Source: Pirellula staleyi DSM 6068 (GTDB lineage: Bacteria > Planctomycetota > Planctomycetia > Pirellulales > Pirellulaceae). Taken from it: a DNA stretch of 64,000 nucleotides. The notes below the pieces were generated by a model that did not search any database, was not told the DNA's origin, and saw only the letters and a list, made by a program, of their open reading frames with translations. A program made the position numbers and the translations under genes. This document shows, piece by piece, positions 9,141-53,722 of the stretch. Within the stretch, counting starts at the first letter, position 1, and each line of letters begins with the position of its first letter. The stretch covers positions 1 to 64,000 of the forward strand of contig CAMCMB010000038.1 of NCBI GenBank assembly GCA_945875845.1, given 5' to 3'.

Positions 9141-9869
9141 ATGAATTTGGGAAAACGTTGTATTGCTGAGTGTTTTGGAACATTTTGGCTCGTTTTTGGT
9201 GGGTGCGGGAGCGCCGTTTTAGCGGCGGTTTTTGCCGGACAAGTCGATCAGACACCTATAAGTCTGGGAATTGGTTTTGTCGGGGTTTCGCTCGCGTTCG
9301 GACTTACGGTTCTAACCATGGCGTACACCATCGGTCACATTTCGGGTTGCCATTTGAATCCGGCTGTGACGCTTGGCCTAACCGCAGGCGGACGCTTTAA
9401 AAGCGCGGATGTCGGGCCGTACATTGTGTCGCAAGTCATTGGCGGGATATTGGGAGCGGGCGTTCTTTATTTGATTGCGTCAGGAAACTCCAGTTTCAGC
9501 CTTGCCGGTGGATTTGCTTCGAATGGTTATGCAGAGCACTCGCCAGGAAAGTACACGCTTTTAAGCTGTTTTGTGGCTGAGTTTGTTTTGACCTTTTTCT
9601 TTCTGTTCATCATCCATGGTGCAACGGACAAGCGCGCACCGGCAGGCTTCGCACCGATTGCGATCGGACTTGGTTTGACGCTTATCCATTTGATTGGAAT
9701 TCCCGTAACGAATCTATCGGTCAACCCAGCTCGATCCACGGGCCCTGCACTTTTCGTTGGAGGCTGGGCGATTATGCAGCTTTGGTTGTTTTGGGTAGCA
9801 CCCATTCTTGGAGCGATCGCCGCTGGCGTCTTTTACAAGACCGTCTTTGAATCGGACACGGATAGATAA
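9141..9869 (+). CDS. aqpZ: Aquaporin Z-type water channel
   Basis: A six-helix channel of 242 residues. The two half-helix motifs are [10 protein letters not shown] (NPA at 73-75) and [15 protein letters not shown] (NPA at 195-197, with selectivity-filter Arg198). The sequence [10 protein letters not shown] gives the His expected in the filter of AqpZ-type water channels. The residue equivalent to the filter Thr of E. coli AqpZ appears to be Leu192 by my counting, which would alter pore polarity; this needs an alignment. AAGAGGG precedes the ATG. A single gene flanked by intergenic repeats. Confidence 0.92.
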
Positions 9870-40125: not shown

Positions 40126-42006
40126 ATGCAATCGAATTTTACAGACGCCTGCTTCACAACCAGGCATTCGGCAATGTTTCATTTCGCAGTGTTCGTCGGC
40201 TTGGTCACGTTGCTTGCAAGTCTTGGACGTGCAGACGACGCGACGGCTTTGGAAGCGGGCCGTATCCTGAAACGCTATTGCTTCCGATGCCACTCAGGCG
40301 ATGGTGCTGATTCGGGGTACGCCTTCGATGTCACCAAAGCCCAAAGTCTGATCGATCAAGATGTTGTCAAGACGGACGAATCGGTCGAGACCAATGCCAA
40401 AGGCGAGAAGAAAAGCAAAGCCGATCGCTCCTCTCTTTTTGCTCTACTGTCCAACGGCCGAATGCCACCAAAAAATCAGCCACACCTGCCTAGACCCTCA
40501 CCATACTAAGCCAAAATCGTCGAGCGGTGGATCAACGAAGGTGCCGCCGAAATCCCCAAACCACAGAGACGGGAGTTCATTTCGATTGAAAAGACCCTCG
40601 AATCCATGCGCGACCACTACAAGACGCTTCCAATAGAAGACCGTCGCAACGTTCGCTACTTCACCCTAGTCAATCTGTGGAACGATTCCGATGTCGATTT
40701 GGACCATCTACGGACCACGCGTGCCGCCCTGTCCAAAGTCTTGAACAGCCTATCTTGGTCCAATGCCATCGAACTTCCCAAAGCTATTGACCCCAATAAG
40801 CTGATCTTTGCTGTCGACACCTCACGGCTTGGTTGGACTCGCGATCATTGGATCGCGTTGATCGAGAGCTACCCGTACGGTCTTGCATATGGCTCTCACT
40901 CTAATCCTGCACTCAAGAAATTGTCTGACGAATTGACCTTCCTGGCGAACCGCGATAGCCAACTATTGCATTTGCGTGCAGATTGGTTCATAAGCACCGC
41001 GACCAAGCCGCAGCTCTATCACAAACTCCTCTATGAGTTAGTCATTCCCGATCTGATCCAGCGCAAAGCGGATCTAAAAACGCCGAACAACCCCAAGCAC
41101 ATGACCGACTTGGACTTGGAAACGTTCCTGAAGGTAAACGTCGCAGGCAACTTGTTTTCCAACCCGCCGAGTGTTCTTCGAGCTGGCTTTGTGAAAAGCG
41201 GGATCTCCGGCCAAAATCGCATGATTGAAATGCATCGCCTCACCAGCGGTCGCGTCTATTGGAAGAGCTACGATTTTCTAGCGAGTAACCGAGAAGCGAT
41301 CCTGGCCCAGTTCCCGCTTGAACCTCCTAATGCGAATAACAAGCATAACAGCTTGGCATTCAAACACGACGGCGGCGAAATCATCTTCACTCTCCCGAAT
41401 GGGCTCCAAGGTTACCTTTTGGCGACCGGGGCTGGCGTTCGGTTGGACGCGGGTCCGATCGAGATCGTGGGAGATTCGCTTCGAACGTCTGGCAATCAAA
41501 CGATCGTCAACGGTTTGTCGTGTATTGCCTGCCATCGCAATGGGATGGTGGAACCGCCGCAAGACGAGATTCGCAAGTTCGCATCGACGTTTGGCGACGC
41601 ACGACGACGTGTTGAAGAGCTTTATGTTGAAAGCGAAAAGATGAACTCCGAGATTAGTCGCATCAATCAAGACTTCGTTGCGGCCGCCAAGCAAGCGACA
41701 GAAAGTTTCCTCACAGACGGGGTGTCGGTCAAGCTAGACTTTGAACGAATGCCCGAGCCAGTGGCGGAGGTATCGCGAAGGTTTCTCCTAGAGGCCATAA
41801 ATCTAGAAACGGTTGCTTGCGAATTGGACGAAGCGGAACCGAAGGATCTTGAAGTTTTGATTCGCCGATCCTCGGAGCTGCAATCGCTAGGAATCTCGAT
41901 CTTGACGAAAGAGGCAGGAGCGATCAAACGAGATGCCTGGGAAAGCAAGGCCGCGTATTCACTGATGCAAGAGACAGCCCGTGAGCTAGGCTTCACCCCC
42001 CGATAG
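40126..42006 (+). pseudogene. Secreted cytochrome c-like protein interrupted by one in-frame stop
   Basis: One continuous frame of 627 codons except for TAA at 40507-40509. Part 1 has a signal peptide (VFVGLVTLLASLGRADD) and the haem motif CFRCHSGDG, then LSNGRMPPKNQ. After the stop the frame continues at once with AKIVERWINEGAAEIPKP, the normal continuation of a PSD1-like cytochrome domain, and later has a second haem site SCIACHRNGM. GAA to TAA is the simplest explanation. GGGGG lies about 6 bases before the ATG. Possible causes are a recent nonsense mutation, sequencing error or readthrough. The family is otherwise uncharacterised. Confidence 0.8.
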
Positions 42007-42128
42007 CACGACGCGCAAGCTAGTGGTCCCAGCACGACGCGCAAGCTAGTGGTCCGCCTGCCGCGATGCGGGAGAAAACGAAAATATGCAGAAATACACA
42101 AACAACCACTAGCTGGCGCGTCGTGCTA
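42004..42128. repeat. REP-like arms, cluster start (two forward, one reverse)
   Basis: Forward arms (TAGCACGACGCG...GCTAGTGGT, 24 bp) at 42004-42027 and 42031-42053, and a reverse arm at 42105-42128. The first arm shares bases with the TAG stop codon of the preceding gene. This is the leftmost occurrence of the family in the window. Confidence 0.88.
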
Positions 42129-42165
42129 CAAACCCCTTTCATACTCAATCAATAGAAACACAATC

Positions 42166-43323
42166 ATGTACAACTCCAAAACAATGATCCTCAGCCTTCT
42201 ACTCATTGCTCAGTATTGGTGGCAAGCTATGGCCGCTGATCCCATTCCTATGCCGTTTACCGGTCAACTTATCAAGATCGTCGACGAGCTCAAAGAAAAG
42301 GTCGCTCGCGATCCCAAGCTTAAAGGTCAGAAGCTCAAGTTTACTCAGATAAACAGCGCTATCGACGACCGCGATGCCGCCAACTCAGTACTCAAAATTG
42401 AATCGTTTCTCAAGTCCGAACTGAAGTCCATTCTGGACTCCAAGGCCGAAAACACCCTTGAGGGTAAAGTTGCCTACATCAAGCCGGATTCAGGGGACAA
42501 CCGTGGTTTTCATGTCTTACAGATTAAGCTCGTCGCCTCCGGACCGAACGGAAAGGAGCTCTTCGAAACCATCGAACGCGAAGTCAACGACACCGACGAT
42601 ATCAACGCCTTCCTCCAAAACACCATTGCACCATCTAGTACCAAATCATACCCCGAGCGAAACGCGGACATGCACAAAGCACGCGTATCGCCGAAATTTG
42701 CTCTGATTCCTGGCAGCGAGTCCCGAGTGTGTGCTATCGGCGAAACCCGTTATTCGCTCGAAGTGCGTCGCAAGGTCCAGGGCAAGGGGGAATCTCTCCC
42801 GGTTCCAGTGACGGACGTTGACGGGTTAGCTTTTGCTTCGGTCGATATCGGCGATACCTACGAAGTCTTTTTGTACAACCGTAATCCGGAAACAGACTCC
42901 GTTGCCAAACTCGAGATCGATGGCGTCGACGTTGTCAATCAATTTAACAAAGACATCACCAATGGTCAGAAGTTTCCGGGGTACTTCGTTCCTCGCGGCA
43001 CGAAGGAGCAACCTGGCGTCCATCCTGTTCCTGGCTGGTACCACACTGCATCAAAAGCCCCAGGAGTGCCAAATGCCTTCAAATTCAAGGTCAATAAACT
43101 TGGCGAAGGGGTGGCATCTGAGGTCGGGCTGCGTTCCAATGTTGGAGGAATTACGGTCCAGTTTTTTGACGCTTGCGAACCGAATGGCAAGCTTCGCAAC
43201 AGAACGGCCGGAGAAACGGCAAAAGGTGAAGGGATGCAAGTGGATTACGACTTAAAGCCCGTCGTTGTGGCCACGAAACCCACGTCGATCATCTCCATTC
43301 GATACACAAGAACCCCAGAATAA
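42166..43323 (+). CDS. Secreted protein of unknown function
   Basis: About 385 residues. The frame is open from 42049 through a REP arm, but the ATG at 42166 gives a signal peptide (MILSLLLIAQYWWQAMA). The N-terminal half (residues 30-190) is Lys/Asp-rich and helical (LIKIVDELKEKVARDPKLKG); the C-terminal half looks beta-rich (AIGETRYSLEVRRK, DVDGLAFASVDIGDTYEVF, GGITVQFFDACEPNGK). No known motif recognised. It lies between REP arms, upstream of the first DGR target on the same strand; a functional link is possible but not shown. Confidence 0.65.
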   Translation: MYNSKTMILSLLLIAQYWWQAMAADPIPMPFTGQLIKIVDELKEKVARDPKLKGQKLKFTQINSAIDDRDAANSVLKIESFLKSELKSILDSKAENTLEGKVAYIKPDSGDNRGFHVLQIKLVASGPNGKELFETIEREVNDTDDINAFLQNTIAPSSTKSYPERNADMHKARVSPKFALIPGSESRVCAIGETRYSLEVRRKVQGKGESLPVPVTDVDGLAFASVDIGDTYEVFLYNRNPETDSVAKLEIDGVDVVNQFNKDITNGQKFPGYFVPRGTKEQPGVHPVPGWYHTASKAPGVPNAFKFKVNKLGEGVASEVGLRSNVGGITVQFFDACEPNGKLRNRTAGETAKGEGMQVDYDLKPVVVATKPTSIISIRYTRTPE

Positions 43324-43327
43324 ACCC

Positions 43328-43384
43328 TAGCACGACGCGCAAGCTAGTGGTTGCGTTCAATAGCACGACGCGCAAGCTAGTGAT
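43328..43384 (+). repeat. REP-like arms (two forward)
   Basis: Two forward arms at 43328-43351 and 43361-43384 (the second ends TAGTGAT). The first begins 5 bp after the stop of the preceding gene. Confidence 0.85.
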
Positions 43385-43528
43385 TTGTCCGTATGAATAC
43401 TCGCGTAGTGGACGAGGTCACGAGTCCCTTTGCAAAACCAGGGCCCGCAAGGACTCGTAACCTCGGCCACTACCATAAAACCAAACAGAAACTCCGCACC
43501 AGTGTTCATTCACCTCCGAGACTAAACT

Positions 43529-44356
43529 ATGAATACATCCACAAAACGGTCAGCATCGATTCTGATTGCGTTCGTGTGTCTATTCAGCCGAGCCATCGGG
43601 CAATCCGAACCAGAACCAGAACGCTACGCCCTGCTGGCCGGTGTGACCAATTACGAACATCCTTCGCTCAACGGACTCAAATTTCCCGAGGACGACGTCA
43701 CCGCGTTGGCAAAACTACTCCGCGAACAGGGCTATACTGTCGATCTCTTGCTAGGTAAAGCAGCGACCAAAGCAGCTATCGAAGCCAAACTCAGGGCCTT
43801 CAAACGCAGAGGTATGAACAGCGGAGTCCTGTTTGTTGGCCTATCAGGCCACGGCATGGAGACCACCGACCCGACGACGAAATCGGAGAAGTCATACTTT
43901 TGTCCTTTCGATACGGTCATGCAAGCAGTTCGAGACGCCAAGGGGCGAATCGTCCCCGGCAACGACGGCCAGCAGTTATTGAGATATGGCAACGTGAAAG
44001 ACGCAGAATACGCGAAGAAATTCACCAATCCGTATGGCGATCCGATAACGGGGAATGACGGCTACGTTTTTACATCACCCGTTGGTAGCTTTGAGTCGAA
44101 CGGTTTTGGGCTTTTTGACATGCATGGCAATGTATGGGAATGGTGTCAAGATGTTTACGATGCGAAAGCGTACCAGGGGCGCAGCGGTGTGAGCCGAGAT
44201 CCGTTATCGTCGTTGGAGGGCTCGAGCCGGGTGTACCGGGGCGGCTGTTGGGGCGGCACGCCGGTGCTTTGCCGGTCGGCGTACCGTGACGGGTACTCGC
44301 CAGGCATCCGGAACTACAACCTCGGCTTCCGTGTGTCCCTCCAGTCAGTTCGCTGA
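43529..44356 (+). CDS. DGR target 1: truncated caspase-like / FGE-sulfatase domain protein
   Basis: 275 residues with signal peptide (SILIAFVCLFSRAIGQ). Residues 33-150 match the first half of a caspase-like domain (YALLAGVTNYE, catalytic His in LSGHG at 108). At about residue 150 it jumps straight into the last third of a formylglycine-generating-enzyme-like (C-type-lectin fold) domain: DGYVFTSPVGSF, FGLFDMHGNVWEWCQDVYD, SSRVYRGG. Compared with the homologue at 47386-49140 about 300 residues are missing, including the catalytic Cys region. The last 46 codons are VR1 plus SVR. The caspase part cannot be active as a protease, but the diversified lectin-like face is intact. Confidence 0.85.
   Translation: MNTSTKRSASILIAFVCLFSRAIGQSEPEPERYALLAGVTNYEHPSLNGLKFPEDDVTALAKLLREQGYTVDLLLGKAATKAAIEAKLRAFKRRGMNSGVLFVGLSGHGMETTDPTTKSEKSYFCPFDTVMQAVRDAKGRIVPGNDGQQLLRYGNVKDAEYAKKFTNPYGDPITGNDGYVFTSPVGSFESNGFGLFDMHGNVWEWCQDVYDAKAYQGRSGVSRDPLSSLEGSSRVYRGGCWGGTPVLCRSAYRDGYSPGIRNYNLGFRVSLQSVR
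44217..44344 (+). other. DGR variable repeat VR1
   Basis: 128 bp aligned without gaps to the template repeat at 46892-47019. Eighteen differences were counted, all at template adenines (A to G, T or C); every template C, G and T is unchanged. The 3' end (CTCGGCTTCCGTGTGTCC...) is identical, as expected for the initiation-of-mutagenic-homology side. Encoded: RVYRGGCWGGTPVLCR and AYRDGYSPGIRNYN. Confidence 0.95.
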
Positions 44357-44378
44357 GCCAAGCAACGCGGAGCGTGGA

Positions 44379-44437
44379 TAGCACGACGCGCCAGCTAGTG
44401 GTTCCGAACAGCAACCACTAGCTGGCGCGTCGTGCTA
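44379..44437. repeat. Hairpin downstream of VR1 (REP-like pair)
   Basis: A perfect 24-bp inverted repeat (TAGCACGACGCGCCAG... at 44379-44402, complement at 44414-44437) with an 11-nt loop. It begins exactly 34 bp after VR1; the same 34-bp spacer and loop length occur after VR2. DGR retrohoming is known to need a hairpin/cruciform just downstream of the VR in the Bordetella phage system. Confidence 0.92.
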
Positions 44438-44475
44438 CTAGCAGGGGGGCTCCCCCTGCCGAAGGCGCACGCGAT
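44438..44475. repeat. Secondary G-rich hairpin conserved after VR hairpins
   Basis: GCAGGGGGGCTCCCCCTGC followed by CGAAGGCGC. The inverse form occurs at 47264-47304, beyond the VR2 hairpin, and at 49274-49306. A run of seven T follows near 44475-44481, so it may also act as a terminator for the target 1 gene. Confidence 0.7.
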
Positions 44476-44490
44476 TTTTTTGGAGCCCAA

Positions 44491-44946
44491 ATGCCTTTCG
44501 CAATATTTCAGATGTCGATTCACGACGATGGCTCACAAGCCAGTGAGCTGAACTCATTTCTAGCTTCGCACAGGGTGCTAACGGTCGAGAAGCGATTTGT
44601 CGATGTTGGGTCCAACTCCTTTTGGTCTTTTTGCGTTGACTATTGGGCTGTTGGCACAGGGTCTACAAAAACACCACGGAGCAATGTGGGAAGAATCCGT
44701 GTCGATTACAAGGAGCAACTTTCGCCGGAGGATTTTGCGATCTTTGCGAAACTGCGGGATTGGCGAAAGGCGATCTCTCAGACCGAGGCAGTACCCGTCT
44801 ATGCTGTTTTTTCGAATGAGCAGTTGGCTCAAATCGCCCGAACTCGCGTGGCCACGAAATCGGACCTTGCCGCGATTGAAGGTGTGGGGGACGCAAAAGT
44901 GAGCAAGTATGGCGAGCAAGTCTTAAACCTGCTTCGCACCTCGTGA
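44491..44946 (+). CDS. HRDC-domain protein, probable DGR accessory factor
   Basis: 151 residues. The C-terminal half (about 78-151) is an HRDC domain: FAIFAKLRDWRKAIS, VPVYAVFSNEQLAQIA, DLAAIEGVGDAKVSKYGEQVL. The N-terminal half (NSFWSFCVDYWAVG) is unassigned. HRDC domains bind nucleic acid at the C-terminus of RecQ helicases and RNase D; free-standing HRDC proteins are a known accessory type in some DGRs, where they appear instead of the usual Avd protein. No Avd-like helical-bundle gene was found here, which fits that class. Confidence 0.85.
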   Translation: MPFAIFQMSIHDDGSQASELNSFLASHRVLTVEKRFVDVGSNSFWSFCVDYWAVGTGSTKTPRSNVGRIRVDYKEQLSPEDFAIFAKLRDWRKAISQTEAVPVYAVFSNEQLAQIARTRVATKSDLAAIEGVGDAKVSKYGEQVLNLLRTS

Positions 44947-44961
44947 ATGGGGAACCTAACC

Positions 44962-45150
44962 TAGCACGACGCGCCAGCTAGTGGTAAAAAGGAACATAGC
45001 ACGACGCGCCAGCTAGTGGTTAGGGGGAACATATCACGACGCGCCAGCTAGTGGTTTTCCTGTTTTTTGATTCGTAATCTACGGGATCGTGCAGAGAGCC
45101 ACTCGCTTGCGCGTCGTGCTATAAAAATCACTAGCTTGCGCGTCGTGCTA
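44962..45150. repeat. REP-like cluster of five arms
   Basis: Forward arms at 44962-44985, 44997-45020 and 45032-45055 (the last begins TATCACGACG), reverse arms at about 45098-45121 and 45127-45150. They fill the gap between the HRDC and RAYT genes. Confidence 0.88.
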
Positions 45151-45193
45151 GGGGTGCTGTTTGGCTGATGTGCTATGAAATGGGGGATAAACT

Positions 45194-45649
45194 ATGAGTG
45201 ATGTGATTGCATACTTCATCACGTGGACAACCTATGGAACTTGGCTGCCAGGCGACGAGCGAGGTTGGACGCAATGGCATCAAGGGTGGAAGGCACCCGA
45301 CAAGAGTTTGGCAGACTACTCTCGATCCATCATGACTGAAGATGCCGTCACGCTGCAAACAGTTCAGCGGCAGTTGGTTGAAGGAACAATCGTGAAACAC
45401 ACAGACATTCGCAACTGGAAGTTATGGGCCAAAAATTGCCGTACCAACCATGTGCATGTGGTTGTCACGGCATATGGATATGATGGGGAAACCGTGCGCG
45501 ATCAGTTCAAGGCATGGTGTACTCGTCTCCTCAAATCGGAGTTCGACCCCAAAAAGACGAACTGGTGGACCGAAGGTGGATATGTCAAGCCGATCGACAA
45601 CGAAGACGACCTATCCGCGGCTATTCGGTATACACTCGAAGCTCAATAG
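45194..45649 (+). CDS. RAYT-like REP-associated tyrosine transposase (Y1/IS200-like)
   Basis: 151 residues resembling the Y1_Tnp fold. Motifs: YFITWTTYGTWLPGDERGW at the N-terminus, the HUH pair in TNHVHVVV (His86, His88), and a candidate catalytic Tyr146 in AIRYTLEAQ. RAYTs are single-copy relatives of IS200/IS605 transposases that mobilise REP palindromes. Here the gene sits inside the densest part of the REP-like cluster, with arms on both sides, which supports this pairing. No IS-type flanking ends or target duplication were seen, so it looks domesticated. Confidence 0.83.
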   Translation: MSDVIAYFITWTTYGTWLPGDERGWTQWHQGWKAPDKSLADYSRSIMTEDAVTLQTVQRQLVEGTIVKHTDIRNWKLWAKNCRTNHVHVVVTAYGYDGETVRDQFKAWCTRLLKSEFDPKKTNWWTEGGYVKPIDNEDDLSAAIRYTLEAQ

Positions 45650-45673
45650 TATTCAATTGCCAAATCGCAAATG

Positions 45674-45823
45674 TAGCACGACGCGCCAGCTAATGGTTGC
45701 CTTATAAATAGTAAGACCTTAGCACGACGCGCCAGCTAGTGGTTACTTTGGTTTCGGTTCAAAAAATGTACGTGGAGAGCGTGGAAGGTTGTTTCCTTAA
45801 CCACTAGCTTGCGCGTCGTGCTA
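45674..45823. repeat. REP-like arms between RAYT and RT genes
   Basis: Forward arms at 45674-45697 (variant TAATGGT) and 45720-45743, reverse arm at 45800-45823. The last two flank 56 bp and could form a large hairpin ahead of the reverse transcriptase gene. Confidence 0.85.
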
Positions 45824-45878
45824 TGCGAAAGAAAAGCACTAATTCGTCGACCAAAAACAACATCGAAAGCCAGCTTCC

Positions 45879-46964
45879 ATGAAACCGGTACGAGGACTTT
45901 GGCCACGGATTCTGGACCGCGAGAACCTGCGGCTCGCAACGCTCAAAGCGCTTCGAACCAAACGGGATCGCACGGAAGTTCGTAGCTACGTGGCCGACCT
46001 GGACAACAATCTTCAGAGAATGCTCGTTCAACTGTCGGAAGATTCCTTTCCGCTTGGCAGATATCATCAGTTTGTGATTTTCGACCCAAAGGAACGAATC
46101 ATTACCGCTCCCTGTTTCGAAGAGCGAGTACTGCATCATGCGCTGATGAACCATTGCGAACCAATTTTTGAAAAATGGTTTATCCACGACACGTACGCAT
46201 GTCGACTCGGGAAAGGACGAAACCAGGCTGTAAAGCGAGCTCGCGAGTTTGCAGGACGGAATTCGTTCTTCCTCAAAATGGACATACGGAAGTATTTCGA
46301 CAGCATCTCGCACGACCGGTTGCTCAGCCGGTTGACTCGACTTTTCAAAGAAGCCCCGCTGTTGCGGCTGTTTGACAGAATTGTCCGCGTTTATCGAGGA
46401 CAACTCGAAATCGGTCTGCCGATCGGTTCGCTTACATCGCAACACTTTGCCAACTTCTATCTGGGCCATTTCGATCGATTTGTTAAGGAGTCGCTTCGCG
46501 TCAAAAACTATGTTCGGTATATGGATGACATGGTGCTTTGGGGAGATTCGGCCTCAGATTTAATTGGCAAAAGGGACGAATGCATCGCATACCTGGACGA
46601 ACAGCTTGGATTGGAGTGCAAGGGAGAACCCTACATCAATCGCACACGGCATGGTATGGATTTTCTTGGTTGCCGCATTTGGCCTACCCATATCACCCTT
46701 AATCGTCGTAGCCGTATTCGATTTCGGCGGCAATTGCAAAAAATAGAAAGGCAATATGCCGAAGGCTCAATCAACGCGATCGAACTACAACGGAGGACGA
46801 CCGCAATGGTCTCGTTCGTCCAGGCTGCGGAGGTTTCAAGTTGGCGCTTCCGCACTCGCATGTTAGAACAGGGGTTGGGAGGATGGTCACAAGGGCTCGA
46901 ACCGGGTGAACCGAGGCGGCAGTTGGAACAACACGCCGGTGAATTGCCGGTCGGCGAACCGTAA
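45879..46964 (+). CDS. Diversity-generating retroelement reverse transcriptase
   Basis: 361 residues. RT motifs: [12 protein letters not shown] (132-143, first catalytic Asp), [20 protein letters not shown] (180-199), and [12 protein letters not shown] (211-222, catalytic YMDD). The motif IGSLTSQ in place of the retroviral/group II Q-G-x-x-x-S-P form is the signature of DGR-type RTs. No maturase or endonuclease domain follows. The last 24 codons run through the first 73 bp of the template repeat, so the RT C-terminal tail ([16 protein letters not shown]) is read from TR in another frame. No strong ribosome-binding site precedes the ATG. The RT copies TR RNA with adenine errors into the VRs. 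Confidence 0.95.
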
Positions 46965-47019
46965 CAGGAACACGCCAGACAACCGGAACAACAACCTCGG
47001 CTTCCGTGTGTCCCTCCAG
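46892..47019 (+). other. DGR template repeat (TR)
   Basis: 128 bp rich in AAC/AAT codons when read in the VR frame ([30 protein letters not shown]), with 33 adenines. It begins AGGGCTCGAACC and ends GTCCCTCCAG. Gap-free match to VR1 (44217-44344) and VR2 (47398-47525) except at adenines. It overlaps the RT gene 3' end by 73 bp and is probably on the same transcript. AAC codons are typical of DGR templates because adenine substitution gives many amino acids and no stop. Confidence 0.95.
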
Positions 47020-47110
47020 CTCAGCACGGCGATAGATTTCGCAAGAACTGAACCGACTATCATCCCGTCCCTGGTAGCGTCCTTCGCGATTCTACCAGGG
47101 CAAACCTAAA

Positions 47111-47167
47111 AACCGCCAATTGCTCGGTGCTAGTAGTCTTTTCGAAAGCTCCGAGCAATCGGTTTTT
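47111..47167 (+). terminator. Terminator-like hairpin after the RT-TR unit
   Basis: AACCG-CCA-ATTGCTCGG pairs with CCGAGCAATCGGTT across a loop of about 25 nt (3-nt bulge), followed by TTTTT within GGTTTTTCCC. A smaller hairpin CCCTGGTAG/CTACCAGGG lies just before it, at about 47068-47099. It would end the RT-TR RNA about 150 nt beyond TR. Confidence 0.6.
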
Positions 47168-47173
47168 CCCGCT

Positions 47174-47304
47174 TAACACGACGCGCCAGCTAGTCGTTGT
47201 CTTGGTTTCGGATCGAAAATTTGCGTCGTGCAGAGCTGCTGAACCACTAGCTTGCGCGTCGTGCTATCGCGCGCCTTCGGCAGGGGGGCCCCCCCTGCAC
47301 CCCG
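47174..47304. repeat. REP-like arms and conserved G/C-rich hairpin
   Basis: Forward variant arm at 47174-47197 (TAACACGACG..., TAGTCGT), reverse arm at 47243-47266, then CGCGCGCCTTCGGCAGGGGG with the complementary CCCCCCCTGC to about 47298. The last part is the inverse of the element at 44438-44475. Confidence 0.8.
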
Positions 47305-47363
47305 TAGCACGACGCGCAAGCTAGTGGTTGCAGTGAAGGACCACTAGCTTGCGCGTCGTGCTA
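47305..47363. repeat. Hairpin downstream of VR2 (REP-like pair)
   Basis: A perfect 24-bp inverted repeat (47305-47328 and 47340-47363) with an 11-nt loop (TGCAGTGAAGG). In the direction of the minus-strand target gene it begins exactly 34 bp after VR2. Stem bases differ from the VR1 hairpin (CAAG instead of CCAG) but both arms changed together, so pairing is kept. Confidence 0.92.
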
Positions 47364-47385
47364 TCCACGCTCCGCGTTGCTCGGC

Positions 47386-49140
47386 TCAGCGAACTGACTG
47401 GAGGGACACACGGAAGCCGAGGGAGTCGTACCGGGAGTCAGGCGTGCTCCCGTTACGGCCCGCCGACCGGCAACCCACCGGCGCGTAGTCCCAACTGCCG
47501 CCCCGGTACACCCGGCTCGAGCCCTCAACTGGGCCTTGAGGATCGCGTGCCGCAGCCGTATCGTAGTTTGCATAGTAATCCCAACACCATTCCCATACAT
47601 TACCATGCATGTTGTGAAGGCCAAAATCATTTGCCTTGAACGACTTGGCTGGCATCGTCGACTTGCCGTCAATCTTTGCTTGGCCTGCCGTGAGAGTCGC
47701 TCCGGTGTTAAAAGGCGTCGTTTTTCCAGCGCGGCATGCATACTCCCATTCCGCCTCTGTCGGCAACCGATAACCGTTTGCGCTAGAAACCAAACGGACT
47801 GTCGCTGACTTGATGTTCTTTTTCCCATCCTCTAACTGAATGTCTGTGATTGAATAGGCTGCGGTACGTCCGTCTTTTTGGCTCAGATTGTTGCAAAACA
47901 TCACCGCATCGAACCATGTCACTGACTCAACAGGCAATCCTCCCGAGGGAGTGATCACGTCGGTCCCAAACCGACTTGGATTGAAGCCCATGACCATTTC
48001 AAATTCGGATTGAGTTACTTCGTACTTGCCGAGATAGTAAGGATTGGAAATAGTAACCTGATGTTGGACTTCATCGCTTTCGTGCTTGCCAGAATACCCA
48101 AGCTCGCTTTCCGGCGAGCCCATCGTAAACGTACCGGCTGGAATGAGAACAAACTCCATGCCTGTCGATTTGCTGATGTAGCTCAATGAGCTCTCTGAGC
48201 CTGGAAGGTTAGCCGCGTCTTTGTCCGCCATCGGCTGTTTCTTTTTGACATCGGCTAGCGGCGCTAGCGCTCGATTCTTAAGGACCATCTCGACTCGACC
48301 GATGCTTAGCAAACGTGGGCTTTGTTCTTCCTGACCTCGCGATTTGTCGCTAACAAGCATTTCTACAGCCGGTAGCAAGTCTTCGCCAATTCCGCCCATT
48401 GTTTTCGGACGTACGGACTGACCAATTCCTCGCAGTTCGTCTAAAAGACATTTAGTTAGCGCGCCATGTCCCCAGTCGTCATGTTCAACCGACGTTTGGC
48501 CAGGCGAGCAGCTCAATAACATTACTGTTTGATTTGGAAGATTCTCGGTCTTGAGGCTGGTACCGAACGATTTCGTCCGCATCTGTTTGCTGCGAGTCGC
48601 ATCATCGCGGCAGCAATCGGTGATCAAGATACGATGTGCAGCCTTGCTCTCCTTGAGTGCCAGCAAAATATCATCCATCGCAACCATCGATTCCTTGGTC
48701 GGAGCCAGCGTGGAGGTGGCTCGGTTTTTCGCATCTCGCAACGCCTTCATCTCGGTGTCGTAGGGACTAAAAAACGATGTGCCCACTCCGTTGATTTCCA
48801 TTTCCGTTCCGTGCCCGGACAGAAAAACGAAGACGATCCCTTTATTGCTGCCTCGCTTGCTGAACTGCGAGAGCTTTTCTGTGATGGCAGCTTTGGTGGC
48901 GTTGGAGCCGGTCAGCGAATCGACGGTGGTATACCCTAAGGCTTTGAGCTCTGTAGCAACAGCTTGCGCATCCTTCTCGGGAAATCGCAGACCGTTCAAT
49001 TCGGCTTTGTCATACTTCGTCACGCCGACGACCAAGGCGTAGAGTTCCGGTTGAGGTGCGGTCTGAGCAAATAGTGGGATACCTAGTAAACAGACCACAA
49101 CGACGGCTAAATGGCTTGCTATTTCCCGAGTCGAGTTCAT
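47386..49140 (-). CDS. DGR target 2: secreted caspase-like / FGE-sulfatase domain protein
   Basis: 584 residues, signal peptide ending LFAQ. Caspase-like domain (about 33-290): YALVVGVTKYD, catalytic His110 in VFLSGHG, catalytic Cys177 in ILITDCCRDD. A FGE-sulfatase (C-type-lectin fold) domain runs from about residue 330: MEFVLIPAGTFTMGSPESE, YEVTQSEFEMVMG, RLPTEAEWEYACRAG, FGLHNMHGNVWEWCWDYY, and ends with VR2 and SVR. Active-site Cys residues typical of true FGE enzymes are not evident, so the domain is probably a ligand-binding fold diversified by the DGR. Exported protease plus variable binding face is inferred. Confidence 0.93.
   Translation of the reverse strand: MNSTREIASHLAVVVVCLLGIPLFAQTAPQPELYALVVGVTKYDKAELNGLRFPEKDAQAVATELKALGYTTVDSLTGSNATKAAITEKLSQFSKRGSNKGIVFVFLSGHGTEMEINGVGTSFFSPYDTEMKALRDAKNRATSTLAPTKESMVAMDDILLALKESKAAHRILITDCCRDDATRSKQMRTKSFGTSLKTENLPNQTVMLLSCSPGQTSVEHDDWGHGALTKCLLDELRGIGQSVRPKTMGGIGEDLLPAVEMLVSDKSRGQEEQSPRLLSIGRVEMVLKNRALAPLADVKKKQPMADKDAANLPGSESSLSYISKSTGMEFVLIPAGTFTMGSPESELGYSGKHESDEVQHQVTISNPYYLGKYEVTQSEFEMVMGFNPSRFGTDVITPSGGLPVESVTWFDAVMFCNNLSQKDGRTAAYSITDIQLEDGKKNIKSATVRLVSSANGYRLPTEAEWEYACRAGKTTPFNTGATLTAGQAKIDGKSTMPAKSFKANDFGLHNMHGNVWEWCWDYYANYDTAAARDPQGPVEGSSRVYRGGSWDYAPVGCRSAGRNGSTPDSRYDSLGFRVSLQSVR
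47398..47525 (-). other. DGR variable repeat VR2
   Basis: 128 bp, gap-free with TR. Nineteen differences were counted, all at template adenines. It encodes RVYRGGSWDYAPVGCR and GRNGSTPDSRYDS. The first three changed adenines carry the same base in VR1 and VR2, whereas the later ones mostly differ, so the actively diversified part probably begins after the RGG codons. Confidence 0.95.
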
Positions 49141-49181
49141 GGAATTCTCAATTTTGTTTTGAAGACAGTTTACTGGTTTGT

Positions 49182-49306
49182 GTAGTACGACGCGATAGGT
49201 AGTGATTGGTGAATGGAACCACTAGCTTGCGCGTCGTGCTATGCTGTTACGGACCACTAGCTTGCGCGTCGTGCTATCGCGCGCCTTCGGCAGGGGGGCC
49301 CCCCTT
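49182..49306. repeat. REP-like arms upstream of target 2
   Basis: A degenerate forward arm near 49182-49206 (TAGTACGACGCGATAGG), reverse arms at 49219-49242 and 49253-49276, then the conserved CGCGCGCCTTCGGCAGGGGG element to about 49306. This lies 5' of the target 2 gene and so resembles the 3' end of the other copies without a VR. Confidence 0.8.
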
Positions 49307-49802
49307 TGGCTGATTGAGCTTGGAGTCTTGGTATTTGTGAACCGCTACGAGCAATGCTGCAGCTAAGGCGAACACTGTCCCGTGGCAAATGGGAATTCGA
49401 TGTCGGAAGACTGGCATGATTTGCTATCGTGTAGTGAAGTTAACAAGACCAGCGAAAATGAGAACAGTCGTTTGGGACTTGAGTAGTGTAGCGAATCGTG
49501 TTGCGGAAATCACCTTTTTAGTAGTAACGTTTCTTGCATGATTGCCATGACGTTTTTCCGCTAGCACATGCCAACGGAGATCTCGAATTGACAAGAATGT
49601 CGGGGTAACTGCCAATTGACGCCACCGCCCGATCAACGGCTTGTTGATTTAGTGAAGTCGTTATTGGGCAAGGGAGGCACGACGGACTGGAAGTCCGTCG
49701 AACCATGAAAGCAACAGCCCGTCAAGCCACGGTCAAGCCAGATGGAGGGCACTTTGAACTCGATTTCGTGGGATCGCTTGTTCCAGCATCTGCCCTACCA
49801 AA
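49307..49802. other. Intergenic region with single-hairpin repeat
   Basis: No gene recognised. It contains CGACGGACT-GGA-AGTCCGTCG at 49680-49700, a one-hairpin relative of the elements at 12-73 and 57809-57870, and GCTTGTTGATTTAG near 49640, which resembles the terminal inverted repeat of the element at 62937-63049. Confidence 0.55.
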
Positions 49803-50534
49803 CTATTTAATTTCGGCCGCTAGGACAGCATCGACCTCGACCAAAACTTGCTCGGTTGATTCGGATGGTGCTGTCTTGGCCGTCGCAAGCATCTTCTCGA
49901 CTGTATTCGCAAGTCGTGTTGCAATCTCGCTTTCCTTCGCAGCATCTTTCGTCAATTTCGAGTCAACATCGTTCGCATGCTGCTCTTGCAGTTGTGAAAC
50001 CTCAGCCAACAGAACCTTCTCAGCTTCAACCCAACGTGCCACTCGGGCCGCAATCTCCTCGGCAACTCGCTTTTGATCGACAAGAGCGGACGAGATTGTC
50101 TTTGCGTTGGCAGCTAGGGCTTTGTATTTTTCGAACTGGACCGACATCGCTTTGGCAACTGACTCACGTCGGTACGTTTGACCGCCAATGCAAATGGTAC
50201 AAGACTTATCTGCCAAGACGGCTTTGAACGCAACCAAAGTTCGCATCCCCTTCGTCTGGGCTGTCTCTGCTTGCGAAAGCTCCGATTCCAGTTCCTGGAC
50301 ACGAGCATCTGCAGCTTCGAACTCTTCGTTGCAATCGTGAACTTTTGCCGCGACTGGCACGACCAGTTTCTCCAGGCGATCGATGATCGCTTTGGATTCG
50401 TCGCAATTGGCGACTTCGTATTGCTGGCTTATGGTTACTGTCGTTTTCGTCGGCTTGTCACAAGCCGAAACGAGCCCGTTACCACATGCAAACCCGAGGG
50501 ACATAAAGACTGCACGAGACAACAACTTTTTCAT
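49803..50534 (-). CDS. Secreted coiled-coil protein of unknown function
   Basis: 243 residues with a signal peptide (MKKLLSRAVFMSLGFACG), possibly a lipoprotein given a Cys near the cleavage site (VSACDKP). The rest is mostly long helices with heptads (residues 45-110 and 130-215: ARVQELESELSQAETAQ, VAEEIAARVARWVEAEKVLLAEVSQLQ) and a CTICIGGQTYRRES insertion with two Cys. Similar in plan to the protein at 50829-51596. No function recognised. Confidence 0.68.
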   Translation of the reverse strand: MKKLLSRAVFMSLGFACGNGLVSACDKPTKTTVTISQQYEVANCDESKAIIDRLEKLVVPVAAKVHDCNEEFEAADARVQELESELSQAETAQTKGMRTLVAFKAVLADKSCTICIGGQTYRRESVAKAMSVQFEKYKALAANAKTISSALVDQKRVAEEIAARVARWVEAEKVLLAEVSQLQEQHANDVDSKLTKDAAKESEIATRLANTVEKMLATAKTAPSESTEQVLVEVDAVLAAEIK

Positions 50535-50682
50535 GATTCTGCTCCGTTAGGAATTAACCCATGCGATTTGTAATTGGGCAATAAATGGCCGTTTGCTTTG
50601 CCCGGTTATCATGGAAACGAAGATGGGTGGGAGTTTCTTCCCGAGTTGTGAAAGAATTATTTGATGGAACTGGCTGAATCCG

Positions 50683-50751
50683 TAGCACGACGCGCAAGCT
50701 AGTGATTGCATTACCGATCAATACCGAACCACTAGCTTGCGCGTCGTGCTA
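50683..50751. repeat. REP-like hairpin pair
   Basis: Forward arm 50683-50706 and reverse arm 50728-50751 separated by 21 nt. It lies between the two coiled-coil protein genes. Confidence 0.87.
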
Positions 50752-50828
50752 TGCCAAAACGAAAAACCGCACTCGCCATTTGGCCGAGTACGGTTTGAAG
50801 AAAAGCCCGCGTTTAACCAGCCCAGACA

Positions 50829-51596
50829 CTATCGCGACGCGACTTTGGCATTTCTGCCGATGATCGCATCCACTTCTGCCAAGTCCAGCGAAGGCGAAAC
50901 ATGGTTGCTGTCGCTGATTTCGCTGTCGAAGCTCTCCGATCGTTGGAGTCCCAAGCGACGTTGGATTTCCAATCGGTCTGCGATCTCGATGGTCAAATCC
51001 ATCGCCTTGCGAGAAGCCGAATTGGCAAGAGCCGATTGTTCAAGCTCTCCGCGCATCTTCATCGATGCATAGTCGGCTCGGAACGAATCAAGCTTATCTC
51101 GTAGGAGATCGCGATCAAGCTTTTGCTTTTCGTAGGCGACGAGCATCTTTTCGTAGCTTTCTCGCTTGCGATCCAGCGTGGACTTCATACTGGTCAACGT
51201 TTCCGACTGTGACTTAAAGCGAGCAACTCGCTTTATCATCGCCGACTCAAGGCCGGTCTTGGTTGCGTCGCAGGTCGTGCTAACGAACTTGGTCTTGAGT
51301 CCGCCCAAATCGGATTGGATTTGAGCAAGTCCCTTTTCCTTGTCGGCAACTTGAGCGGCGTAGCGATCCAACGCTACTGATTCTTCAACGACCACGCGGC
51401 CGTTGCTTGCTAGCTCGGAATCGAGTTGTTTGATCGACAGATCGAGCCGCTCGATATCGACCGCGACGGGAATGGACGTCTTGAACCAATTGGTAACGTA
51501 TTTAACGGCAATCGTTCCATAATCCTTGACGGTGCCGCCCACTCCGCTCATGCCAAGAACCAAAACGACTGCGGCAACTGCAACTGCTTTTTTCAT
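50829..51596 (-). CDS. Exported coiled-coil protein of unknown function
   Basis: 255 residues. N-terminal signal peptide or anchor (MKKAVAVAAVVLVLGMSGVGG), then nearly continuous coiled coil (about 50-200: VDIERLDLSIKQLDSELASNG, TLTSMKSTLDRKRESYEKML, LDRDLLRDKLDSFRADYASM). The tail is Ser/Asp-rich. The plan resembles phage-shock/PspA-like helical proteins, but the export signal argues against that. Same strand as the sigma factor/partner pair upstream and the other coiled-coil gene downstream; possibly one regulon. Confidence 0.7.
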   Translation of the reverse strand: MKKAVAVAAVVLVLGMSGVGGTVKDYGTIAVKYVTNWFKTSIPVAVDIERLDLSIKQLDSELASNGRVVVEESVALDRYAAQVADKEKGLAQIQSDLGGLKTKFVSTTCDATKTGLESAMIKRVARFKSQSETLTSMKSTLDRKRESYEKMLVAYEKQKLDRDLLRDKLDSFRADYASMKMRGELEQSALANSASRKAMDLTIEIADRLEIQRRLGLQRSESFDSEISDSNHVSPSLDLAEVDAIIGRNAKVASR

Positions 51597-51959
51597 AACC
51601 TATTCTCCCCAAAACAAACGACCGTGAATCACGGCGACCAACATCGGTGCCTTGTACACTGAGGAAACGTTGGGAGATTGGAAAATATTCCCGAGGTCGT
51701 AAAGATTTTTGGGTTTCCGGAGGGCTCGAAATTAGCACGACGAGTAAGCTGGTGATTGCTTTACCTAACCGGGAACTCCTTTGACCGATCTGGGGATTAA
51801 ATAACCTGGGTAGCGGATTGATTTGCGTGTTTAACGACAAGCACTTCTAAAACCAAGTAATCTACTCTTCTCCCCTTTACTGCCCTGGCCCTCTGGGGAG
51901 AGGGCTGGCCGAAGCGGGGCGTGGGGGAGAAAAACACAACCGCAGACTAAGGTCTTGAC
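51597..51959. other. Intergenic region with degenerate REP arm
   Basis: Holds the rightmost, degenerate REP-like arm (51733-51756, TAGCACGACGAGTAAGCTGG) and an unrelated GGCCCTCTGGGGAGAGGGC hairpin-like motif near 51890. No gene seen. Confidence 0.5.
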
Positions 51960-52856
51960 TCACGATAGCTCCAAAGCCCGCTTCTTCAGAGCGTCCTTAA
52001 GGCGATTGATCGTTTTGTCCGCTTTCAAATTCACATCGCTAAACGAGTCGGCATTCCGTCTCAACTCTGCTAAATAGGAATCAATTTCTTTGGCCCAATC
52101 CGAGCATTTGCCGACCAACCATTTCCGGTCAACATCGTCGAGTGGTTTATGCGCTGCAGCGATCAAGGTATCGCAACCGTGACGAAACTCGGTCAGCCTC
52201 TTCTCTAGCTCTTGAGCATTCAAGGGACGCTTGTCCGCCCACTGGCGAGCTGCGTCGGACAGATTGCTCAAATACTTGCGTGCGCTTACATCCTGAGCCA
52301 GCAACCCTGGTTGGTCGAATCCCCAGCCCGATGGTTTACCGCCAGTTTGCGACCATAAACCAAGCACGACAAGCACCGTCGCGGCTAACGCAGCAAGTGT
52401 TGCAACGGCTTTTCCAGACAACCGAGTGGTTTCTGGAGCATTCTTGGAGTTTGCGAGTTGTACATTAGGAAACCGATTTGATTCCTTACTAATGGCCTGG
52501 CTGACACGAGTAGTAGATTGATTGACGGCTTCGCGGTCTGCTGCGGACAAGGGGACTTGGTCCCAGTACGAGCCTCCACTTGAAAGCACCTGCTCCTGTA
52601 ATTCCAAAATGGCTGCCGGATTTTGAAACAGCGCAGAGATTTGCTGGGTGCTCAGTGATCCCAGGCCTCGTTGCAAAAGCTCCGGCAGTTGACGGCCGCA
52701 AATCTCGTCGAGCGTCTGCTGTTGGCGAGGTTGGCTTTTGTAAAGGGTCTCCAGTTGAACCACTAGCCCAGCGAACTCCAGGCCGACTAATTGCTGCTCA
52801 AGCCATCTTGGCCAATCGGCATTGTTCTCAGGCACTTCGAAGATAGTTAGTTTCAC
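51960..52856 (-). CDS. Single-pass membrane protein, probable partner of the ECF sigma factor
   Basis: 298 residues beginning with GTG inside GTGA, which overlaps the sigma factor stop by 4 bases (translational coupling). N-terminal cytoplasmic part of about 145 residues (LDEICGRQLPELLQRGLGSL), one membrane segment (AVATLAALAATVLVVLGLW, about 150-168), then a C-terminal extracytoplasmic helical part. It lacks the zinc-binding HxxxCxxC of classical ZAS anti-sigma factors. The role as anti-sigma or sensor is inferred from coupling and topology. Confidence 0.65.
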   Translation of the reverse strand: MKLTIFEVPENNADWPRWLEQQLVGLEFAGLVVQLETLYKSQPRQQQTLDEICGRQLPELLQRGLGSLSTQQISALFQNPAAILELQEQVLSSGGSYWDQVPLSAADREAVNQSTTRVSQAISKESNRFPNVQLANSKNAPETTRLSGKAVATLAALAATVLVVLGLWSQTGGKPSGWGFDQPGLLAQDVSARKYLSNLSDAARQWADKRPLNAQELEKRLTEFRHGCDTLIAAAHKPLDDVDRKWLVGKCSDWAKEIDSYLAELRRNADSFSDVNLKADKTINRLKDALKKRALELS

Positions 52857-53422
52857 GATAGCTTCCCTTCTATGCAGAGTTTCATGTCCTTGGTTCCACG
52901 AAGGATTCTCGTACCGACGGTTCCGCTTGGGATACCCAAGGATTCGCCCATCTCTCGGTAGGAGGCACCATTCAATCGGAGGACGATCACCTGTCGAAAA
53001 ACTGCCTCAATCTCCTTCAAGCAGTCTTCAAACGCCGATGCCCGTTCCGATTCCATTAACCGCTGAAGGACATCCTGTCCCTCACTTCTTTTTGCTTTCT
53101 CGTGTTCGATGGCCTCGTCGCTTTTGTTCGTGTATTTCTTCGCACGCCGCCCTTCGTTATTGGACTCGTTGCCTGCTACACGCATCAGCCAATGCCGTAG
53201 GTCGTCACCTGACTTTTCGCGAAACGACTCTATATGCATGAAGGCTTTAATCCAGGCCTCCTGCACCGCATCTTCTGCAGCGGCAGTTCCCCAGCATTTG
53301 GCTGAGCAGTAAGCTAAAAGTCGGGGTGTCCACATCTCAATGATCTCATTCCACGCTTGGTTATCGCCGTTGCAAGCACGGCCAATGAGGTGCTTTATTC
53401 TATCATCATCACCAGTTTCCAT
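52853..53422 (-). CDS. ECF-type RNA polymerase sigma factor
   Basis: About 189 residues. Region 2: NQAWNEIIEMWTPRLLAYCS and AAAEDAVQEAWIKAFMHIESF. Region 4: EAVFRQVIVLRLNGASYREM and GIPSGTVGTRILRGTKDMK (helix-turn-helix). The frame extends to 53629, but the ATG at 53422 has GGAAAG upstream and starts METGDDDRIKHLI, close to region 2 as usual. It directs transcription in response to a signal, probably through the overlapping membrane protein. Confidence 0.9.
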   Translation of the reverse strand: METGDDDRIKHLIGRACNGDNQAWNEIIEMWTPRLLAYCSAKCWGTAAAEDAVQEAWIKAFMHIESFREKSGDDLRHWLMRVAGNESNNEGRRAKKYTNKSDEAIEHEKAKRSEGQDVLQRLMESERASAFEDCLKEIEAVFRQVIVLRLNGASYREMGESLGIPSGTVGTRILRGTKDMKLCIEGKLS

Positions 53423-53722
53423 GTGTGCTTTCCATGAGCGTGCCGAACCGAATTCTTCGCAGGACCAGTGTAACCATTGTTGGTTGTGAGAATAAGCTGC
53501 CTGATTCAAGACGGAAGTAAATGTCAATCGACTTATCGCGGTACTGGCGATGCTGCGAAAAACAGCCTCGCAACCAAAGGAAACGATCGTCGAGGAATAA
53601 TTCTTCCCGTCGAATTGAAAAGTTTTCAAAATCGCGGATCGCAGCGACAGTACGGTTGCTAAATCAGGGTTCTCGACGAGAACTCGCGCGCCTGCGCGAG
53701 GTGCGATGTTCCATTGCTATTA

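Follow-up and report, generated by a model that had tools for sequence, protein, structure and literature searches.

The sequence analysed here, referred to as the window, comprises positions 1-64,000 of the forward strand of contig CAMCMB010000038.1 (assembly GCA_945875845.1) from Pirellula staleyi DSM 6068, and the subject of this report is a diversity-generating retroelement (DGR) at 43529..49140. On the plus strand, the locus comprises target gene 1 (43529..44356) with the first variable repeat, VR1 (44217..44344), at its end, a gene for an HRDC accessory protein (44491..44946), the DGR reverse transcriptase (RT) gene (45879..46964), and a 128-nt template repeat (TR; 46892..47019), within which the RT frame ends. 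Target gene 2 (47386..49140), with VR2 (47398..47525) at its end, is on the minus strand. The 3' ends of both targets therefore point toward the RT gene, in agreement with an original prediction from the sequence that two targets face each other across the RT.

The locus is a genuine DGR of the HRDC type with two targets. This is supported by the following data. Gap-free comparison of the three repeats reproduced the predicted pattern, as 18/18 differences from the TR in VR1 and 19/19 in VR2 fell on the 33 TR adenines, while 95/95 non-adenine positions were unchanged in both VRs. Differences at a C, G or T of the TR, which the prediction had named as grounds for rejecting it, were not found. 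Given the difference counts, the hypergeometric chance of adenine-only differences was 2.7e-13 for VR1 and 3.7e-14 for VR2. At least one VR was changed at 26 of the 33 adenines, and both were changed at 11; the 26 fell at codon positions 1, 2 and 3 in 15, 9 and 2 cases, respectively. The RT carries the IGSLTSQ and YMDD motifs, as predicted, and matched PF00078 and PHROG 1423 (E = 3.9e-93). The proposed HRDC gene matched PF00570 (E = 7.5e-20), HRDC being one of the three accessory proteins, with Avd and MSL, expected of a DGR. The adenine-only changes in two targets also support past activity of the system, as had been suggested. For the description of the DGR as complete, a conserved RNA needs to be added, and one of the target genes looks truncated.

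The closest solved relative of the window RT was 8ub7 (E = 2.8e-42), deduced to be the BPP-1 RT because BPP-1 brt matches it over all 328 residues; a "retron-type" RT gave E = 3.2e-15, and the group II RT GsI-IIC gave 1.9e-14. In a tree of 18 RTs, the 16 DGR RTs grouped together (support 100/99). The two left outside were RTs from the window's own genome, identified by inspection of their sequences as a group II intron RT and an RT-Cas RT. The HRDC-type RTs, the window RT among them, formed a clade of 10 (99/100). The alternative that the RT would group with group II introns was thereby set aside. Related loci were collected by an RT search with one genome per species, from which the best 80 of 167 were taken together with 9 further stretches; one duplicate was dropped to leave 88 distinct loci (L numbers below), and hence 89 with the window, some of them only 3 kb long. 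An HRDC homologue was located beside the RT in 88/89 loci, window included, and the usual order among the relatives was target, HRDC, RT, TR. A scan of the relatives for TR/VR pairs gave 100 rows in 71/88 loci, 2 of the rows being mirror images, and 99 rows had both repeats on the same strand.

Both VRs are located at the C terminus of an FGE-sulfatase domain (PF03781), the FGE fold being C-type-lectin-like. Target 2 (584 aa) consists of a signal-peptide-like N terminus (by eye), a caspase (C14) domain (PF00656, E = 3.1e-22) and an FGE-sulfatase domain (E = 3.1e-47). Target 1 (275 aa) has an N-terminal part of the caspase (PF00656 profile 2-109/233) and only the C-terminal part of FGE (PF03781 156-253/255). 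Comparison of the two proteins by BLASTP gave two separate blocks, and the part between them, which contains the caspase Cys segment (Cys placed by eye in target 2) and the first half of FGE, is absent from target 1. The VR1 gene, judged by this alignment, is an internally deleted version. Matches to FGE were found in 83/91 sources searched and matches to the window's caspase in 2/91. The diversified part would be the C-terminal FGE sensor of caspase proteins that probably act as immune or conflict sensors. The window departs from the usual order in three respects, namely, the inverted second target downstream, the insertion of a repeat-transposase unit described below, and the caspase-FGE targets. 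Opposite-strand targets are rare among these loci, and the one in the window is unusual, with a printed precedent in Pseudogulbenkiania. The one opposite-strand row among the relatives was from L048, where a 68-nt minus-strand stretch (15371-15438) resembles a TR for the VR at 9346-9413; the 17 differences were 88% at A, and this is possibly a real opposite-strand pair.

The final 24 nt are identical in TR, VR1 and VR2 when the ends are compared for a distinction of the IMH (initiation of mutagenic homing) versus IMH* kind, and since TR and VR do not differ there, the TR-to-VR polarity may lie in the flanks. A cruciform with a GRNA loop just after the VR has been described for phage DGRs, a subset of DGRs (PMC3240598). 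Around either VR end in the window (10 nt upstream to 60 nt downstream), no perfect stem of at least 5 bp was present; as this cruciform is known from only a subset, its absence does not exclude DGR membership. VR-flank cruciforms were also rejected as a feature of HRDC-type loci in general, being found in 47/100 VR rows compared to 39.6 (maximum 51) in shuffles, a count that includes 2 mirror-image rows (L052, L061) and some rows that are fragments of a single pair.

A further finding beyond the DGR itself was a conserved, structured RNA directly 3' of the window TR (47020-47163). It begins with a stretch termed P0 (47020..47051), in which CTCAGC is followed by a GCGA-TAGATT-TCGC hairpin and then by GAACTGA. 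Next is a conserved box, GAACCG (47050..47055), and then hairpin P1 (47067..47101; arms 47067-47077 and 47092-47101), which has a bulged U after the first G and is followed by AAA. The last part is helix P2 (47119..47159; arms 47119-47130 and 47148-47159), with a U.U mismatch and an internal loop of AGTAG (47132-47136) opposite CGAA (47143-47146).

The assignment of P1 and P2 rests on covariation. Alignment A1 comprised 15 planctomycete rows including the window, picked and trimmed using a recurring pattern in TR 3' flanks, and RNAalifold without a given structure returned 20 pairs for it, of which 18 changed on both sides. When the structure was written out, 91.9% of 308 cells could pair, compared to 72.0% in shuffles and 35-40% with slid partners, and the covariation score was 0.511 versus 0.183. 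When a covariance model (R1) built from A1 was run on 76 non-seed sources (1.02 Mb), 54 of them contained a match at E <= 1, for a total of 55. Of these matches, 21, for the most part from Bacteroidota, were aligned with MAFFT, and without a given structure the alignment folded into the same two helices with 19/20 pairs changing on both sides; as the 21 rows were cut at the model matches, this alignment is not wholly independent. With R1, a second model (R2) and the seeds combined, the element was matched in 79/89 DGR loci, model-building rows included.

The position of the element was also consistent. In the 72/89 loci with a located TR, it was found on the TR strand, mostly 12-32 nt past the TR end, and it usually started about 200 nt past the RT match. 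Distances of 51-86 nt were mostly from loci with short TR rows, one distance was -5 (L098), and the match in L081 was on the other strand (E = 0.81). In the window, itself one of the 15 seeds, the match was at 47047-47163 with E = 1.4e-18, the next best having E = 1.4. The box read GAACAG most often (38 of the 79 loci), with GAACCG the next listed (13). For P0, the best hairpin had a GGAT or GGAC loop in 27/88 stretches from TR to box, while shuffles averaged 0.2. Two other matches were out of place, a second one in L040 (6673-6789) and one in L066 (393-508), 4.9 kb upstream of the RT; with the RT kilobases away, a second or displaced template RNA may be present there.

No Rfam family reached its gathering score for the element in the window or in 12 further loci. 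Matches of the window to Rfam microRNA families were discarded, as they were below gathering scores and fell on the repeat palindromes described below. In L086, a long noncoding RNA family matched the other strand over the element (E = 0.99), and in L026 a group II intron was matched elsewhere in the locus. The literature searched, seen in part and not extending to a 2025 BPP-1 paper or a structured-RNA survey, yielded no description of this RNA or of the VR-flank complementarity reported below. The RNA may nevertheless be partly in print, since a passage of PMC12691664, citing the 2025 BPP-1 paper, predicts that regions up- and downstream of the TR belong to the DGR ribonucleoprotein.

The 7.0-Mb genome contained three element matches in all: two immediately follow the TR of a DGR, and the third is at a TR copy that is orphaned. 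The second DGR with the RNA is at C129 and consists of a kinase-FGE target (kinase by eye), HRDC, RT, TR and RNA. The orphan, at C1:223620-223886 (L149 9621-9887), is a copy of the C129 TR and RNA with 95% identity over 267 nt, the TR part being identical. No RT was found within the 19 kb examined around it; it may work in trans, or it may be a remnant of retro-copying. A further DGR is present at C17 (L147 2882-14069). Its RT and HRDC frames are open, and NTPase-like parts were recognized by eye in its two FGE targets, but its TR is overwritten by VR-type sequence, about 110 nt of which are VR flank, and no RNA element was matched. At C6 (L150 8877-14265), three FGE VR-like domains in two genes were observed with no RT match.

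A phylum-wide search gave 11 element matches in 9/392 genomes, including the 3 above, 3 beside an RT, 2 after TR-like sequence without an RT, and 3 weak ones (E = 0.001-0.008) without an RT, which were taken as chance because 3.9 were expected. TR-like sequence followed by the RNA element, that is, an orphan template RNA, was observed at L198 8975-9080 and L199 8185-8277 in two other genomes, with no RT match in 18.0 and 14.5 kb, respectively. Among 13 phage or virus DGR loci searched unfiltered with R2, a plus-strand match between TR and RT was obtained in a Chromohalobacter phage (E = 1.5e-8), with weaker ones in six more (E = 0.0008 to 0.85); BPP-1 had no plus-strand match to R1 or R2. A later set of 40 viral-contig loci, 38 of which were searched with R2 (two near-duplicates left out), gave 8 matches. 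L220, the only one of the 40 with an HRDC gene, had the element 14 nt past its TR (E = 4.6e-13); four further matches, in L222, L228, L249 and L224 (E = 0.003-0.6), were on the plus strand no more than about 310 nt upstream of the RT match, and the remaining three were elsewhere.

The second line of evidence concerns the sequence immediately 3' of the VRs. In the window, TCAGTTCGCTGAGC follows both VR1 (44345..44358, plus strand) and VR2 (47384..47397, minus strand, the 14 nt being identical), and it is complementary to GAACTGA and GCTCAGC, the 7 + 7 nt of RNA on either side of the P0 hairpin. The match is in the register of strong cases elsewhere, with TCAG at the VR end opposite CTGA before the box. 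To score all loci, only sequence after the VR end was compared to RNA from the TR end to the box, using 1000 shuffles. L037 was counted twice (two pieces of one pair), and the mirrored L052 and L061 rows were left out of these p-value tests. Complementarity was significant at p <= 0.005 for 34/87 pairs (28/63 loci) and at p <= 0.05 for 39. The same-sense control gave 9/87 and 14 at these thresholds, RNAs taken from other loci (300 shuffles) gave 2 and 8, and VR 5' flanks gave 0/88 and 4. A first same-sense control (31/88) was rejected as contaminated because both of its windows held TR/VR-shared sequence, and the above test replaced it.

The signal was strongest in Bacteroidota. In L081, L080, L085 and L048, the VR flank could be aligned to the RNA's reverse complement across some 30 columns, interrupted by short gaps and a few mismatches. 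Clear planctomycete cases, from a wider-window test, were L028 and L155 (15/15 nt) and L152 and L159 (12/12). For BPP-1, the VR end plus flank was complementary to the spacer (Sp) at a level reached in 0/1000 shuffles, compared to 7 for the end alone, 2 for the flank alone, 921 for the TR end and 501/1000 for the same-sense control. This complementarity falls near Sp A56, which we take to be the BPP-1 priming position. By where that adenine falls, the GAAC box is a putative cDNA priming or branch site. L220 had an 18-nt complementary stretch, partly a T run (0/500 shuffles).

From these data, we consider the following account likely, with a probability of about 0.8: the window holds an HRDC-type DGR with two targets, in which the 3' RNA would prime the cDNA and the resulting chimera could land by pairing with the VR flank. 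The RT, TR and 3' RNA are probably contained in one operon transcript, and the RNA, with its P0 hairpin, GAACMG box, P1, and P2 with the RGUAG/CGAA loop, probably binds the RT-HRDC complex. In the manner of the BPP-1 spacer, it would then supply the 2'-OH from which error-prone synthesis of the cDNA starts into the TR, and the cDNA would remain joined to the RNA. In many related loci, the VR 3' flank is complementary to the segment of RNA that lies between box and TR, which would make RNA and cDNA together collinear with the target bottom strand. The chimera could thus pair with the top strand of the VR in the way an RNA-primed Okazaki fragment would, leaving adenine-derived changes in the VR. 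The flank complementarity suggests in this way that landing is by RNA:DNA pairing. Since the BPP-1 spacer is reported both to bring in the RT-Avd complex and to start cDNA synthesis at an internal adenine (PMC12875486), the element may be read as its HRDC-lineage counterpart. The wider proposal, that HRDC-type DGRs as a class are RNA-guided, with the 3' RNA domain binding the RT and priming the cDNA, the linker pairing 3' of the VR and the chimera landing in the manner of an Okazaki fragment, is more tentative, and we would put it at slightly under even odds.

Several observations weigh against these proposals. In 10/89 loci no element was matched (L044, L045, L056, L059, L060, L087, L094, L100, L161 and L147), many planctomycete loci show no flank complementarity, and 48/87 pairs have p > 0.05. 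The complementarity in the window is itself just 7 + 7 nt with P0 looped out, giving p = 0.031 for VR1 and 0.045 for VR2. Among the 21 loci with at least two VR rows, it was present at all VRs in 6, mixed in 3 (L071, L093 and L097), lacking at p <= 0.005 in 11, and marginal in the window. The same-sense excess implies that the part-palindromic P0 contributes some of the signal. Of the 13 phage loci, only BPP-1 was significant and the other 12 had no complementarity at p <= 0.004, so that BPP-1 survives correction only narrowly. Lastly, among 33 later viral TR/VR pairs other than L220, one was significant, about the chance number, and 32 had no complementarity at p <= 0.004.

The main rival is that the match is the scar of past copying. 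When a target was founded, the RNA part of the chimera would have been copied into the chromosome along with the cDNA, and the VR would since then be followed by the RNA flank in inverted form. Copied-in RNA would account for the locus-specific and often nearly perfect character of the VR-adjacent copies, for the many loci with no match, and for L071, L093 and L097, where one VR has it and another does not. Maintenance is better suited by L055, L058, L062, L069, L091 and L092, in which both VRs keep the match at 0/1000 shuffles, and by its uneven retention along the RNA: for the 29 significant of 66 standard-spacing pairs, the matching fraction from the box to the TR side was 0.66, 0.85, 0.72, 0.97 and 0.99. 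On balance the scar is deemed unlikely, though it is the strongest of the competing explanations.

A different objection is that the window DGR is decaying, its operon split by a mobile insertion and its VR1 gene a deletion remnant. The insertion consists of repetitive extragenic palindromes (REPs) and a gene resembling a REP-associated tyrosine transposase (RAYT; 45194..45649, plus strand) located between HRDC and RT, which sit close together in the relatives. The REP sequence GCACGACGCGCMAGCTAGTGGT has 23 copies (<=3 mismatches) in the genome, all of them within 42006..50749 of the window. An inverted pair is located at 44379..44437 (plus strand), 34 nt downstream of VR1, and a like pair at 47305-47363, 34 nt from VR2. 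At <=1 mismatch, the REP was present in 7/197 genomes, this one included; 4 of the others are of the same genus, and in 3 of these 4 it is scattered over several contigs. The RAYT-like gene had no match in Pfam, NCBIfam, PHROG or PADLOC. REPs lie on both sides of it, as in a REP/RAYT unit, and its nearest homologues, in genomes G023 (70%) and G015 (64%), are both flanked by palindromes with the same core, CGACGCGC[ACT]AG[CT]. It was therefore deduced that a REP/RAYT unit either inserted into the DGR locus or arrived together with it.

Foreign origin of the zone is suggested by the REP distribution only, as GC content gives no sign of a transferred island (52.2% inside, 51.7% and 52.1% outside). 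The gene to the right of the zone (51960-52856) has just 26-37% homologues, in 4/26 other genomes of the genus. The REP pairs were considered as a functional VR hairpin and rejected: VR1 and VR2 share that flank, this RAYT was not found in any of the 88 related DGR loci, some of which span just 3 kb, and C6, which has another RAYT-like gene, has it amid a different palindrome (TAGCCG..GGGCGCTAGCCCCGGTT). A published report describes CGTC-tagged REPs without a dedicated transposase (PMC3733652). Upstream of target 2, minus-strand genes at 49803-53629 include a sigma-factor-like open reading frame and coiled-coil-like secreted ones (by eye), and a similar-looking gene set precedes the kinase-FGE target on C129 (by eye).

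Decay would fit this insertion, the loss of the caspase Cys segment and half of FGE from the VR1 product, and the overwritten TR and missing RNA match of the DGR at C17. The RT, HRDC, TR, RNA and both VR frames of the window are intact, and decay is accordingly thought improbable. It is more doubtful still that P2 does no more than end transcription of the RT-TR operon as an intrinsic terminator. The window TR 3' region folds strongly (z = -4.2) with a T run at its end, and at least 4 T occur near the element end in 48/79 loci. There is no such run in 31/79, however, RGUAG (71/79) and RGUAR..GAA (74/79) are not terminator features, and in phage DGRs a like element lies upstream of the RT gene; a double role of P2 as terminator and DGR RNA is possible. 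Equally improbable is that the flank match arises from the palindromic P0 or from shared descent of TR and VR flanks, as same-sense matches, while also above chance (9/87), were about one-fourth as many as complementary ones (34/87) and had a lower mean score (17.3 versus 23.6, in a set that includes the mirrored L052 and L061 rows).

If the RNA-guided reading is true, the one-way TR-to-VR polarity would be set by the TR having no complementary flank, and flank pairing would replace the phage cruciform as the target signal. The entry of the mutated cDNA into the target is described in a 2026 paper as incompletely understood; for BPP-1, that paper reports a preference for targets in which the lagging-strand template is the strand complementary to the cDNA, and it speaks of a proposed Okazaki-like intermediate (PMC12875486). 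An RNA linker complementary to that same strand beside the VR would provide a concrete landing mechanism and a sequence rule for target prediction. The covariance model detects DGR template RNAs, orphans included, and the window, with one template and two oppositely oriented targets, offers a natural test of the replication-direction bias.

The systems most comparable to the window are the following. The DGR of Bordetella phage BPP-1 (mtd, avd, TR, Sp, brt) has in common with it the RT family, adenine mutagenesis and a structured RNA, Sp, 3' of the TR. By eye, the spacer also shares with the element a CAGCCGGTTCTGTCC...GGCAAA (GTCC...GGCAAA) stretch, and like many HRDC loci, it is complementary to the VR end and flank. 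BPP-1 differs in its use of Avd, in the position of TR and Sp upstream of the RT, and in its VR cruciform. HRDC is named as a DGR accessory protein in a passage of PMC10053308, and most HRDC-type loci have in common the target-HRDC-RT-TR order and FGE-like sequence. For Thiohalocapsa and other conflict-system DGRs, PMC10907252 describes diversified sensors tied to caspase-like, TIR and other effectors, and mobile stem-loop repeats. Effector-linked diversified sensors and mobile stem-loop repeats at the DGR are likewise present in the window, although the Thiohalocapsa-type DGRs are of clade 5 and carry repeats of insertion sequence elements resembling miniature inverted-repeat transposable elements, while the window has a REP with its own RAYT-like gene. 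In Pseudogulbenkiania and the inverted DGRs, components are found on both strands and VRs are opposite to the TR and RT (PMC3521204). The window resembles them in having a VR opposite to the TR and RT strand and is distinguished from them by an inverted VR whose distance from the TR is 378 nt and whose 3' flank is the same as that of VR1.

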